A program made the position numbers and the translations under genes. From positions 1 through 26,633 of the IMG/VR virus record IMGVR_UViG_3300036466_000062: DNA of 26,633 bases. The stretch is one strand, 5' to 3'. Below the pieces are notes generated by a model, which saw nothing but the letters and a program-made list of their open reading frames with translations, was not told the origin of the DNA and did no database searches. This DNA is from a virus. Positions 5,154 through 23,469 of the stretch are shown here, piece by piece (the stretch's first letter is position 1; the number at the start of each line of letters is the position of its first letter).

Positions 5154-7763
5154 GTGATTGAGACTATAATTAAGGCTGATGGAAGAATGGAGCCTTTTGA
5201 TGCAGGAAAGCTAAACCGATGGGGGCAGTACGCTGCAAAGACTGGTGGTGATTGGTCAACAGTGGTTATGAAAACTGTGAAGAGGTTGCCAAAAGTGGCA
5301 TCTTCAGATGATGTACACCAAACAATGATTGATGTGTGTGTTGAACTTGAATCCCTAGAATACTCCAAACTGGCAGCTAGGCTACAGTTTGCAACATTAC
5401 GAAAGAACTTAGGCAGACTAGGTGTAAGTGACTCTGGTAGCTTTGAAGATATCTATGAAACATTATGTGGTCATGGTGTATGGGACAAGGAATCATTACC
5501 AGAATATAACCCAGTGTGGGAACTTTGGTATAAAGATCTCTACCAATTACGGATGGACTACTGGCAAGTAAAACAGTTTGATGATAAGTATGGCCTAAAG
5601 TATAAAGGTAAGGTTGTGGAGACACCACATATTGCTGCCCTAGGATTGGCATTATCACACCACGGAACCACAGAGCTGGCGTACAAGACCGCTAAGGCAA
5701 TTTTGTCAGGTAAGCTGAACCTACCAACACCTGCACTGAATGGTGGACGTAATGGAGACTTTGATAGTGTATCTTGTTGTGTGATCACTGGTGGTGATAC
5801 TGTAGATAGTATTGGTGTTGCAGAGCATATTGCATACAAGATGACAGCTAAGAAGGCTGGGATTGGTATTGAATTTAATACGCGATCTAAAGGCTCACCA
5901 GTTAAAGGGGGTAGGGTTGCACACCTTGGTAAGCATGGGATCTACTCAACAGTTGACAAGGCTGTAAAGATGTTCTCTCAAATAACCCGCGGGGGGAGTG
6001 CAACTGTCACGTATGCAGCAATTGATCCACAGATCATGGAAATGCTGTTGTGGAAGACTCAGAAGATTGACATAGAGCAGCGCATTGACAAGCTAGATTA
6101 CTCACTGGCATATAATGACTCATTTGTCAATGCAGTTATAAGTAATGATGACTGGTATTTGTTTGACTATGCTTCAGCACCAGAAGTTCATGAAGCTTTC
6201 TATACTGAAGATTCCGATGGCTACAATTTAGTAGTTGAGCAAAACAAGCACAAGGCAGTATCAACAATCAAGGCACAGGAATTGCTAAAGAGGTTCCTCA
6301 CATCAAGACAGGAAACTGGACGTATATACTGTTTGAATGTAACTAGGGCTAATACTCATACACCCTTTATTGATAAAATCACCTTGAGTAATCTTTGTGT
6401 TGCACCAGAGACAAAAATCCTTACCAGAGATGGGTATAGGGAGATATGGGGACTTGAGGGCAGGACTATTGACATATGGAATGGTGAAGAGTGGTCATCT
6501 GTTGATGTAGTTAAGACTGGTGTTGATCAGGAAATGATCTCTGTGTCTGTTCATAGTTACGTTGACGGTAAGTTTGAAGGTACAAATACTCTTAGATGCA
6601 CACCCTACCACAAATGGTACAATTTAGATGGTAAGGGGTTAAGGACATTCCAACTTCAAGTTGGAGGAAGCTTACTCCCTTGGCATTCACCTGATGGTAG
6701 GTTGCACTACTCAATAGTAGAAAACTTAGAGGTCTCTTCCCGCAGTGACACCTTCTGCTTCAAAGAGCTTAAGAGGGGGATGGGTGTTTTCAATGGTATC
6801 CTAACCGGGCAGTGCCAAGAGATCATGCTACCAACCAAGGCATATGAGGGTATGTATGACCTGTACCAACAGGGTGAAAATCCAGTATCTGTAGGTGAGA
6901 CAGCATTCTGCTCATTAGCAGCAATTAATGTTGGTAAACTCAATACTGATTTATCTGAGTATGAAGAACTAGCAGATATTGCACTCCGCACTGTTGACTC
7001 TATGATATCCAAGACATCAGCAATGACACAGACTATGTTTGAATCAATGCAACGTAGACGTTCTGTAGGTATTGGTATCACTGGATTAGCACAGTACCTT
7101 TATAACTGTGGCTCAGACTACACAGGAGATACAGACTCACTATTGCTTGTGAGTAAGTTAGCTGAGAAACACTACCACTCGTTACTGGTTGCATCACAAG
7201 GTATGGTCACTGATGGCTCTTGTAAGCCTGTTAGCGGGATTAATCTTAATTGGCTACCAGTTGACACTGCATATAACAAATATGAGCCACATCTTGATTG
7301 GGAGTCTTTAAGGGGTAAGGATCGTGGACACTCAGTGTTGGTTGCCCATATGCCCACAGAAAGTTCAGCCGTTTTTTCTGGTGCGACTAATGGATTATAC
7401 CCACCACGTAACAAGATCATCTATAAGCAATCACGTAAAGGTGCTATTCAATTCATCTTAGATAAGGACAATTTTATCCCATTCTGGGATGTTGATAATA
7501 TTGTGATGAGTAAATATTACAGCCGTGTTCAGGACTTTACAGACCAAGGGATTTCTGCGGATTATGTGGTTGTTCCTGAGAAACACCCTAATGGAAAGGT
7601 TCCACTATCCCATTTAATGAAAGAGTGGGTAGCACAGGCAAGATTGGGCAACAAGACTATGTACTATGTCAATACAAAGCCTAATAAGAGTGTTAGTGTA
7701 AAGGATCTCGTTGCATCAAAAGAGGTAGAGGTAGAAGCCTGTGAAGGTGGATGTAAGATTTAA
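5154..7763 (+). CDS. nrdA: Class Ia ribonucleotide reductase large subunit, intein-containing precursor
   Basis: An 869-residue precursor starting at GTG 5154, ten bases after AAGGAG (5138-5143). It reduces ribonucleoside diphosphates to dNDPs with NrdB. Residues about 1-90 are an ATP-cone regulatory domain. Active-site elements are the Cys pair SVSCCVITGG (C208/C209; one matches E. coli C225), the N-x-C-x-E motif split by an intein (N413, then C554 and E556 after splicing), C586 in FCSLAAINVG (E. coli C462), FSGATNGLYPP near the C terminus, and a final redox tail CEGGC (C863, C867). Removing the 139-residue intein leaves 730 residues, close to E. coli NrdA (761). The intein sits immediately before the radical-bearing Cys (E. 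coli C439), so the enzyme should be inactive until splicing. NrdB follows 16 bases downstream. Confidence 0.95.
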   Translation: MIETIIKADGRMEPFDAGKLNRWGQYAAKTGGDWSTVVMKTVKRLPKVASSDDVHQTMIDVCVELESLEYSKLAARLQFATLRKNLGRLGVSDSGSFEDIYETLCGHGVWDKESLPEYNPVWELWYKDLYQLRMDYWQVKQFDDKYGLKYKGKVVETPHIAALGLALSHHGTTELAYKTAKAILSGKLNLPTPALNGGRNGDFDSVSCCVITGGDTVDSIGVAEHIAYKMTAKKAGIGIEFNTRSKGSPVKGGRVAHLGKHGIYSTVDKAVKMFSQITRGGSATVTYAAIDPQIMEMLLWKTQKIDIEQRIDKLDYSLAYNDSFVNAVISNDDWYLFDYASAPEVHEAFYTEDSDGYNLVVEQNKHKAVSTIKAQELLKRFLTSRQETGRIYCLNVTRANTHTPFIDKITLSNLCVAPETKILTRDGYREIWGLEGRTIDIWNGEEWSSVDVVKTGVDQEMISVSVHSYVDGKFEGTNTLRCTPYHKWYNLDGKGLRTFQLQVGGSLLPWHSPDGRLHYSIVENLEVSSRSDTFCFKELKRGMGVFNGILTGQCQEIMLPTKAYEGMYDLYQQGENPVSVGETAFCSLAAINVGKLNTDLSEYEELADIALRTVDSMISKTSAMTQTMFESMQRRRSVGIGITGLAQYLYNCGSDYTGDTDSLLLVSKLAEKHYHSLLVASQGMVTDGSCKPVSGINLNWLPVDTAYNKYEPHLDWESLRGKDRGHSVLVAHMPTESSAVFSGATNGLYPPRNKIIYKQSRKGAIQFILDKDNFIPFWDVDNIVMSKYYSRVQDFTDQGISADYVVVPEKHPNGKVPLSHLMKEWVAQARLGNKTMYYVNTKPNKSVSVKDLVASKEVEVEACEGGCKI
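6396..6812 (+). mobile_element. Mini-intein in NrdA, C-terminal Gln, no endonuclease domain
   Basis: In-frame insert of 139 residues (precursor 415-553) between SNL and CQEIMLPT of the reductase. It begins CVAPETKILTRDGY, a classical block A with nucleophilic Cys1. Block B is TLRCTPYHKW with T483 and H486 (intein 69 and 72). It ends FNGILTGQ followed by Cys+1. The length leaves no room for a homing endonuclease. Two unusual points: the last residue is Gln where most inteins have Asn, and the preceding residue is Gly where His is usual; inteins with C-terminal Gln are known and some splice. The block F stretch reads KELKRGMGVFNG, with no His. I see no stop or intron-like RNA structure, so a self-splicing intron is not needed to explain it. 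Splicing activity is inferred. Confidence 0.92.
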
Positions 7764-16417: not shown

Positions 16418-16580
16418 TGAGAATGGTGAGGTGGTAAAGCCTGTATTCACCTCTAGCTTCGAGTATTGCCAGAAGTGTACCAGAAGATTACATAAAGACT
16501 TATTTGAGGGACACACCACTTGTAGATTTTGTAGAGGTGTGTATGATATACCTAATTCAACCAAAGATGGAGGTGTGTGA
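16401..16580 (+). CDS. Small zinc-ribbon protein
   Basis: 59 residues from ATG 16401 after GGAGAA, overlapping the previous gene's end. Two CxxC pairs (YCQKCTRR and TCRFCRG, about 20 residues apart) form a zinc-ribbon-like arrangement with a basic centre. Its stop shares one base with the SspB-like ATG, so the two are translationally coupled. Function unknown; zinc ribbons of this size often mediate nucleic-acid or protein contacts. Confidence 0.65.
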   Translation: MSLTYDENGEVVKPVFTSSFEYCQKCTRRLHKDLFEGHTTCRFCRGVYDIPNSTKDGGV

Positions 16581-17050
16581 TGATTGATTACCGTACTCAG
16601 GTGGAAAATGCTGTTACTACTGGATGGGAGAGAGGTGCTAAGGTTGGTATCATATTCCAAGTGACACAGGATGGTGAGTATATCGATGGACTCTCATTCC
16701 CTTATGGAGCAGATACATTGAAAACAGTAGGTGGTGAACGTGCTGTTATCATCAACCTGTCACTATCTGCATGTAAGCAGTTTAACTATGTAGCTGAGTT
16801 TGAGGAGTTCGTGTATGATGTATCTGTTAAGGGTAAGCCATTCTTTGGTAACATCCCGCCAGCTATGGTAGTTGATGTGATTGACATGAATACACTTGAG
16901 TCATTCTACGATCCAGAGGCACCTATCACAAAGGTAACAGACGCTATGGTTGAAGTACCTAGCCACAACTTTGTCAAGGCTAGGCTGGTGGTAGGTAACC
17001 CACATATTGCATCTCAGAAGAGTACAGCAACTTTAAAGGTGATACATTAA
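16580..17050 (+). CDS. SspB-like ClpXP adaptor protein
   Basis: 156 residues from ATG 16580 (TGATG overlap with the preceding stop, GGAGG six bases before). SspB binds ssrA-tagged proteins on stalled-ribosome products and delivers them to ClpXP. The match is by pattern: AVIINLSLSACKQF and KGKPFFGNIPPAMVVDVI line up with the beta-sheet core of E. coli SspB (NIAPSAVR-type and VPMAAVLAI-type segments), followed by an acidic FYDPEAP as in SspB's FEPE. A flexible tail ends in TLKVIH, like the ClpX-docking XB motif LRVVK at the end of E. coli SspB. Length matches (E. coli 165). A distant domain alignment could still refute it. Confidence 0.65.
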   Translation: MIDYRTQVENAVTTGWERGAKVGIIFQVTQDGEYIDGLSFPYGADTLKTVGGERAVIINLSLSACKQFNYVAEFEEFVYDVSVKGKPFFGNIPPAMVVDVIDMNTLESFYDPEAPITKVTDAMVEVPSHNFVKARLVVGNPHIASQKSTATLKVIH

Positions 17051-17051
17051 T

Positions 17052-17270
17052 ATGAACTTTGATGAATTAGTCTCCGCCAGAATGAATGAACAACTCATCA
17101 CCCACCCAAAGCACAATGGAGTTTACCGACTGTGTGAGCCAATTGAGGGTAAACACCCCGATGGTGCATGGGTGGTGGGGTATTTATACCAAGATGTAGA
17201 TACCTTGACAAAGTATTGGAGGCCAATCACAATGTTTGGTAATTTTAGTATTTGGAAAGATGGAGAGTAA
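17052..17270 (+). CDS. Unknown 72-residue protein, DUF1653-like
   Basis: Starts at ATG 17052, one base after the SspB-like stop, with AAAGGTG. The sequence NGVYRLCEP, then WVVGYLYQDVD and KYWRPITMFGNF, is faintly like DUF1653 (a GxY, Y-x-D and W-R-P-x-x-M-F pattern), a small beta-barrel of unknown function. Likely coupled to the gene above. The match is weak. Confidence 0.6.
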   Translation: MNFDELVSARMNEQLITHPKHNGVYRLCEPIEGKHPDGAWVVGYLYQDVDTLTKYWRPITMFGNFSIWKDGE

Positions 17271-21639: not shown

Positions 21640-23469
21640 TTGGAAAGTTTAGTTGAGAAGATTTTATCGGTGGTGAATGGTGATAATGAGGAGGTTGTTA
21701 CAGGTAACGCGAATAAATCAACAGAGGTGTTTTCTACACAAAGGGATCTGATAGCAGGGGAAGCTGCAAAGTATATTGCACACAACTACTTGCTACCTAA
21801 GCACCTTTCAGAAGCACATTTAGAGGGTAAAATCCACATACATGACTTAGACTATGCACCATTATCAGGACAATCAAACTGTTGCCTAATAAACCTAGAT
21901 GATATGCTGACTAATGGGTTTAAGATGAATGGAGTAGAGATCACAACACCAACTAATATCAACACCGCTATGACATTAGCAAGTCAAATTGTAATGGCGG
22001 TGGCATCATGCCAATATGGTGGCATTAGCTTTGATAGGTTTGATGAGGTATTAGAGAAGTATGTTACAATGACATACAATAAGCATCTATTGGTTGCTAA
22101 TAATTTTAATATACAAGATAAAGAAGATTACGCTCACTCAAGAACAGAGAAAGATGTATATGACGCATGTCAGACATTTGAATATCAAGTTAACTCTATG
22201 ACATGCACATCAGGGCAAACACCCTTTATAACTATTGGCTTTGGCTTGGGGGCATCTTGGGAAGCTAAACTACTGCAAGAGTGTATATTAAAGATCCGCA
22301 TTGGTGGACTTGGGGAGCATAAGACTACAGCTATCTTCCCTAAATTGATTTATAGCATCAAAGATGGAGTCAATCATAAGAAGGATGATCCTAATTATGA
22401 TATTAAGCAGTTAGCTGTGGAGTGTTCTTCTAAAAGACTCTACCCTGATATCCTAAATTATGATCAAGTGGTTGATGTAACAGGCAGCTTTAAGGCTAGT
22501 ATGGGATGTCGATCATTCCTCTCTAAACTGGAGAAGGACGGCAAAGAAATCCACTCTGGTAGAAGCAATCTTGGTGTGGTTACTATTAACCTACCTATGG
22601 TCGCAATGGAAGCTGGCAGTGTAGATAATTTCTACCAGTTACTAGAGGAATACTTAGGTTTAGCTAAAGAGGTTTGTGAGTTTAGATTAGATTACCTTTC
22701 TAAGGTTAAAGCAAAATCAGCCCCTATACTCTATCAAGAAGGTGGCCTATTAAGGCTGCAACCAGATGAGTTAGTATTACCACATCTAATCGATCGTGGC
22801 AGCAGCATCTCTGTTGGATACATTGGCATCAATGAGACAGTAAATGCACTATTAGAGGGTGATCATTTGCTGCATGATAAGAATAAACAAAAGTTAGCCA
22901 TTGAAATTCTAGAGTTCTTTAATGAGAAGGTAACACAGTTCAAGGAAGAGTCTGGTGTAGGTTATTCTGTCTATGCAACACCATCAGAAAGCCAATGCAA
23001 GAGGTTACGTGATGCAGCATACAATAAGTTTGGTGAAGTGTCTGGTGTCACCGATAAGGAATATTTTACTAATAGTTTCCATCTAGAAGCATCAATGCAA
23101 ACTGATCCCTATACCCGTATGGACTTTGAACGTCAGTTTATCTCATTATCAGCAGGTGGTTTCATCTCCTATAGTGAGTTACCAGACATGAAAAACAACC
23201 TACAGGCACTAGAAGATTTATGGGATTTTAGCTACAACGTAACACCCTATTATGCAATCAATACACCAGTTGATGTTTGTTTTGAATGCAACTTTGGAGG
23301 GACGATGGACAACACAAGTAGGGGTTTCCGCTGTAAGCGCTGTGGTAACACTGACCAAAGAAGAATGTATGTAATTCGAAGAGTAAGTGGCTACCTAGGC
23401 AACCCAAACTCCAGACCTTTCAACAAAGGGAAAATGCAAGAATGTAATGATAGAAAAATAAACCAGTAA
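21640..23469 (+). CDS. nrdD: Anaerobic (class III) ribonucleotide reductase
   Basis: 609 residues from TTG 21640 after AAGGAGAGACAA. Reduces ribonucleoside triphosphates without oxygen using a glycyl radical. Visible elements are C124 (VASCQYGG), C290 (MGCRSF, the same number as T4 NrdD's catalytic Cys), four zinc-site cysteines (C547, C550, C565, C568 in CFEC and CKRC) and the glycyl radical loop RVSGYLGNPNSRP with Gly584. No NrdG activase gene is seen in the window; activation could come from the host or from elsewhere in the phage genome. A weak N-terminal ATP-cone region seems absent or very short compared with cellular NrdD (about 710). Confidence 0.93.
   Translation: MESLVEKILSVVNGDNEEVVTGNANKSTEVFSTQRDLIAGEAAKYIAHNYLLPKHLSEAHLEGKIHIHDLDYAPLSGQSNCCLINLDDMLTNGFKMNGVEITTPTNINTAMTLASQIVMAVASCQYGGISFDRFDEVLEKYVTMTYNKHLLVANNFNIQDKEDYAHSRTEKDVYDACQTFEYQVNSMTCTSGQTPFITIGFGLGASWEAKLLQECILKIRIGGLGEHKTTAIFPKLIYSIKDGVNHKKDDPNYDIKQLAVECSSKRLYPDILNYDQVVDVTGSFKASMGCRSFLSKLEKDGKEIHSGRSNLGVVTINLPMVAMEAGSVDNFYQLLEEYLGLAKEVCEFRLDYLSKVKAKSAPILYQEGGLLRLQPDELVLPHLIDRGSSISVGYIGINETVNALLEGDHLLHDKNKQKLAIEILEFFNEKVTQFKEESGVGYSVYATPSESQCKRLRDAAYNKFGEVSGVTDKEYFTNSFHLEASMQTDPYTRMDFERQFISLSAGGFISYSELPDMKNNLQALEDLWDFSYNVTPYYAINTPVDVCFECNFGGTMDNTSRGFRCKRCGNTDQRRMYVIRRVSGYLGNPNSRPFNKGKMQECNDRKINQ

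Follow-up and report, generated by a model that had tools for sequence, protein, structure and literature searches.

The window, the whole stretch of virus DNA that was analysed (26,633 bases), carries a gene whose product is read as a strongly diverged, phage-borne homologue of SspB: a putative adaptor in which the core would hold a cargo and the tail would provide a tether to host ClpX. A probability of about 0.6 is given to this reading. SspB homology and the conservation of a docking-type tail were found by computation; ClpX binding, cargo binding and delivery we infer. The folded core would bind a peptide or a folded partner, and the linker and C-terminal LKVIH tail would dock on the ClpX hexamer of the host at its zinc-binding N-domain. 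Docking would keep the bound protein near the ClpX pore, where host ClpXP would degrade it. In bacteria SspB (stringent starvation protein B) is an adaptor that passes other proteins on to the ClpXP protease. The coordinates of the gene and its parts are collected in Table 1.

Table 1. Position of the SspB-like gene in the window and of the parts of its product
Feature	Position	Strand	Basis or remark
SspB-like gene	16580..17050	+	156 aa from ATG 16580; GTG 16577 possible
Predicted N-terminal helix (residues 4-17) and first strand (residues 22-27)	16589..16660	+	AF2 from an SspB-containing alignment
Conserved core, residues 53-104	16736..16891	+	hhalign and alignments; AVIINLSLSACK ... YDVSVKGKPFFGNIPPAMVVDVI
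Linker, about residues 105-150	16892..17029	+	AF2 pLDDT <50 at residues 115-142
Putative ClpX-docking (XB-type) tail, TLKVIH	17030..17047	+	Conserved C-terminus; strict pattern; ZBD consensus

Gene, operon and phage family

The SspB-like open reading frame is real. It occupies a stop-bounded frame at 16577-17050 (+) and lies within a tightly packed operon of small genes. ATG 16580 is more likely to be the start codon than GTG 16577, because a GGAGG-like site is located upstream and the position agrees with the annotated start of the orthologue in Shewanella phage KASIA, a relative of the aquatic source phage. This ATG shares one base with the preceding stop codon, and the next ORF begins at 17052. 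The orthologue, KASIA p131, has 90% amino acid identity and the same ATG start. The two genes differ by 41 synonymous changes against 20 nonsynonymous ones, which gives a dN/dS of about 0.11, and the gene is under purifying selection. KASIA p130 (L001:4625-4999) lies between the p129 and p131 orthologues, at a place where the window has no gene; this difference, which adjoins the SspB-like gene, reads as an insertion or deletion.

No tmRNA or tRNA was found in the window or in KASIA. No conserved neighbour was found that could be a cargo candidate, the neighbouring genes being common only to close relatives. Upstream of the SspB-like gene of Vibrio phage 2.058.O, at a distance of a few genes, lies a gene (L003:927-1457) with the annotation of proteasome subunit, and in henriette a gene of equal length and place (L004:927-1457) is annotated as hypothetical.

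Two other genes of the window are recorded here. The ribonucleotide reductase large subunit gene (5154-7763) contains an interruption of about 139 amino acids at 6396-6812 (+), which is absent from KASIA. The interruption, with the sequence CVAPETKILT ... TPYH ... VFNGILTGQ/C, resembles a mini-intein whose last residue is Gln in place of Asn. The match to the Pfam reductase barrel extends across it, and no intein model matched it. Besides this aerobic reductase the window has an anaerobic, NrdD-like ribonucleotide reductase gene (Pfam NRDD) at 21640-23469 (+), and no NrdD-like gene is present in the KASIA annotation.

Translated searches of 50,697 phage records gave homologues in about 70 records of Vibrio phages besides KASIA; the family is known so far only from Vibrio and Shewanella phages. 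Identity to the window protein was 34% for Vibrio phage V6Aob and 25-29% for 2.058.O and henriette, and weak matches were obtained in Ackermannviridae-like Vibrio phages. The two subgroups of the family are related by hhalign (98% probability, E 1e-14) and are bridged in tblastn by 207E48.1 (E 5e-6 to henriette). Where annotations were inspected, the homologues were named hypothetical protein, with the single exception of an asparagine synthetase. IMG/VR and GTDB contigs were scanned with single proteins, with alignments and with degenerate patterns; the only finds were VAP7 and one near-identical contig, and a distant homologue from these scans aligned badly. A further pattern match (L100) was rejected as a relative, its ORF resembling a terminase by eye.

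The conserved core of the family is approximately VTINLG-SACK ... YDV--GGKPF-GNIP---I--I. Residues G85, F88 and G90 are invariant in the family alignment, and A64, C65, K66 and D80 are nearly invariant. The core motif of the window protein recurs in KASIA p131, V6Aob, 2.058.O, henriette, 1.244.A, 207E48.1, K469 and VAP7, and the tail is in the same position in all of these except VAP7, which has a short extension.

Relationship of the core to SspB

The window protein gave no match in Pfam, including a test at the cut-off of Pfam SspB (PF04386), none in NCBIfam, and none among PDB sequences using phmmer and hmmsearch. Nothing was found in PHROGs at E 0.5, so the PHROG 8945 profile was not matched; the homologues likewise did not match PHROG 8945 at E 1. 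Eight family members had no match to Pfam SspB even at E 10, and the family profile had no match among PDB sequences and did not find the host SspB in eight bacterial genomes. As the direct searches were silent, the resemblance of the core to SspB, which had been claimed from the sequence pattern, had to be tested by another route.

Bacterial SspBs were taken from GTDB contigs, and phage SspB-like proteins were found using E. coli SspB as the query. The phage comparison set is assigned to SspB by Pfam PF04386 (cut-off 27 bits), with four members above the cut-off (AH06, 44.4 bits; LucasX, 43.3; Psa21, 39.7; D181, 29.3) and the others below it. The family profile was compared by hhalign with a mostly bacterial SspB profile (the GTDB loci with pf16, Ea35-70 and one Acinetobacter sequence), with bacterial plus more phage SspBs, and with the phage SspB-like set alone. 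Probabilities of 57.5% (E 1e-4), 93.3% (E 2.7e-7) and 97.2% (E 2.9e-11, 129 columns) were obtained, respectively, each E-value referring to one comparison and not to a library search. Controls were run because such single-comparison values cannot be read as library E-values. Reversed profiles gave 0.1%. The real scores were 33.0, 47.8 and 69.9 in the same order, against maxima of 25.7, 27.8 and 19.2 in 300 column shuffles each. When the 328 stop-to-stop ORFs of the window and KASIA were ranked as single sequences, the window ORF was first and its KASIA orthologue second, with a clear gap before the third ORF, and these two ranks held for both SspB profiles. BLAST links from D181 or AH06 to the family were weak (best E 0.003 and 0.02 at realistic database size) and are not counted as evidence by themselves. 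Homology of the core to SspB, as originally predicted, is supported by the profile-profile comparison with its controls, together with a biased structure prediction that is described below.

The core AVIINLSLSACK ... YDVSVKGKPFFGNIPPAMVVDVI was aligned with SspB IVLNIAPRAV ... ARFGGIPRQVSVPLAAVLAIY. Core identity was 10-18% to bacterial SspBs (16% to an enterobacterial SspB), and most residues common to bacterial SspBs, for example the IYARENG stretch, are absent from the family core. A tree built from the core separated the family, as a single clade with 100/98 support, from every other sequence, the deeper branches being without resolution. A recent capture of host sspB was rejected on the low core identity and the separate clade.

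Something other than the plain ssrA tag is probably the cargo, since the core is conserved in the phage family and yet most of the residues shared by bacterial SspBs have been lost; a host or phage protein chosen by the phage would be held instead. The protein could also be an ordinary stand-in, binding ssrA tags or RseA as host SspB does and boosting, during infection, either the envelope-stress response or the removal of tagged fragments. Membership of the SspB family by profile is in keeping with that role, which has been proposed by modelling for the SspB of phage pf16 as an RseA binder (PMC5587285). The pf16 protein, however, has an identity of about 53% to its E. coli counterpart SspB, against the much lower core identity and absent shared residues of the window protein, and the likely hosts already have an SspB (Shewanella loci); a stand-in is considered quite unlikely.

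AF2 run on the single sequence gave no confident fold (pLDDT 29.7). A second AF2 model (monomer) was made from an alignment of one phage homologue and 13 bacterial SspBs; its block pLDDT was 66-87 outside the linker and one loop, and its overall mean was 64.7. The predicted N-terminal helix and first strand took positions that correspond to SspB helix 1 and strand 1 (block pLDDT 77-87, residues 1-30), and residues 1-116 of the model were structurally aligned to SspB chains. Using Foldseek against the PDB, the best matches of the SspB-aided model were SspB (E 1.5e-5); 17 of the 19 best were named SspB and two were Agrobacterium AGR_C_3712 chains. Structural alignment gave a Z of 11.5 to 1twb and of 5.4 to the best unrelated chain, and lower rows of the structure search held WYL-domain, Hfq and other small-barrel proteins. 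The match is partly circular because SspB was within the input alignment. BFVD models, which were made elsewhere using other alignments, also matched the model (VAP7 A0A4Y5TVB1 and annotated phage SspBs) and may be taken as a partial remedy for the circularity. The top BFVD match, A0A2I7SBC8, equals the 2.058.O protein in length and is a candidate for it on that basis only.

The linker differs in length and sequence among the homologues. It had been predicted to be flexible, and its low pLDDT (Table 1) agrees with flexibility but is no proof of it. Its net charge is -1, compared with -14 for an enterobacterial SspB, and it is neither strongly acidic nor low-complexity.

The C-terminal tail and its putative role

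The final residues of the window protein are TATLKVIH. Tails in the family are LKVIH, LKVVH, LSLVG, MHLVH, MYLVH, PSIVK, PTLVK, PTLVG and PTIVK; that of VAP7 is PTVIK, followed by GGKDEN. Ends of a similar kind, VIK or LIQ with GGK after them, occur in the jumbo-phage SspB-like proteins of PS119XW, Haymo and Psa21. Bacterial SspB tails are mostly LRVVK, with LKVIK or LKVVK in Aeromonas and LTLVK, LTLIK or LTVVK in Shewanella. A strict tail pattern, [LM]x[VIL][VI][KHGR] anchored at the very C-terminus, fits 76 of 80 bacterial SspB tails. Among 669 ORFs taken from the window, from KASIA and from the homologous loci, it was present in five, each of them a family member, and a looser pattern was present in 17, including nine family members. 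Since the pattern was composed after the family had been seen, the count of 5/669 expresses rarity elsewhere and is not a pre-planned test. The earlier observation that the protein ends in TLKVIH, near an LRVVK-type motif, holds well, and the conservation of a putative ClpX-docking tail of the SspB type across diverged homologues is supported.

For the zinc-binding domain of ClpX, a peptide-library study arrived at the consensus LKxh, where h is a small hydrophobic residue; this consensus resembles the SspB tail (PMC7226468). The window tail fits this consensus with LKVI, and its terminal residue is H, not K. In RssB, the C-terminal motif that had been proposed earlier belongs to the fold of the protein, and the ZBD does not bind it (PMC7226468); from this case, an SspB-like C-terminal motif is no proof of docking.

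An SspB fold could have been kept by descent in a protein with another present job, e.g. the binding of a phage protein or nucleic acid, and with a tail that has no docking role at ClpX. The fold is itself a small barrel, and the small-barrel proteins in the lower rows of the structure search are compatible with such a change. This reading is considered very unlikely, as members with 18-34% identity keep the tail at the extreme C-terminus and none of the other tested ORFs has the strict pattern.

The main rival is a decoy or competitor: the tail would occupy the ClpX N-domain and block SspB, RssB and others, so that their substrates are stabilised, and the protein would have no cargo of its own. 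For this, no part but the tail would be needed. Competition with RssB at ClpX has been shown for SspB and for its tail peptide, either of which inhibits RssB-dependent degradation of sigma-S in vitro (PMC7226468), and the disappearance of most SspB-conserved core residues could mean that the normal cargo has been lost. A mere tail carrier, however, would not need a core that is conserved in the family and a gene under purifying selection, and the decoy is considered unlikely.

The adaptor with a cargo of its own is the preferred reading. Its extension, that the family is a separate and widely shared class of ClpXP adaptors in Vibrio and Shewanella phages, with the core rebuilt for new cargo and host ClpXP redirected to, for example, a defence or transcription factor, is put forward tentatively and with some doubt. 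If true, a phage may steer host protein destruction via ClpXP, and a tool for aiming ClpXP would be common to marine phages of several kinds, namely KASIA-like siphophages, 2.058.O-like phages (about 100 kb) and Ackermannviridae. The family has been overlooked because no sequence model recognises it. It would offer small, easily expressed proteins for asking what phages make ClpXP destroy or spare.

Comparison with known SspB proteins

Phage SspB-like genes are already known as a kind. Pseudomonas phage pf16 gp18 was described in 2017 (PMC5587285), and gp039 of Erwinia phage RAY was seen in the cytoplasm and given the name of an SspB-like ClpXP adaptor (PMC10299810). PHROG 8945 is named as phage SspB-like, and Erwinia jumbo phages also have annotated SspB-like genes. 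With these earlier annotations, the gene is less unusual than the original prediction supposed. No functional test of a phage SspB-like protein was found in the literature searched. PhiKZ gp232 (L105:571-1458) scored 23.8 bits to Pfam SspB, just under the cut-off, and matched NCBIfam SspB down to E 3e-12; it appears to belong to the wider SspB-like group. It and its relatives in Pseudomonas, Xanthomonas and Serratia jumbo phages are "hypothetical" proteins that match SspB models, and some of the jumbo-phage matches to SspB models have long additional C-terminal regions.

PHROG 8945, pf16 gp18, RAY gp039, phiKZ gp232 and its jumbo relatives resemble the window family in being phage-borne SspB relatives, several of them with a similar tail, and the phage SspB-like proteins are its best profile match (97%). 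Most of them are recognised by Pfam or PRK11798 models, unlike the window family, which forms a separate clade from them (100/98). With gammaproteobacterial SspB (PF04386) the window protein has in common the core by profile, a helix followed by barrel strands in the model, a linker and a C-terminal tail of the docking type. It differs from that SspB in its low core identity (10-18%), the absence of a Pfam match, the loss of IYARENG, a 2-residue insertion before the strand carrying YDV, a linker that is not acidic and a tail ending in H. What is new is a very diverged and unnamed SspB branch, recognised by no sequence model and common to several groups of Vibrio and Shewanella phages.
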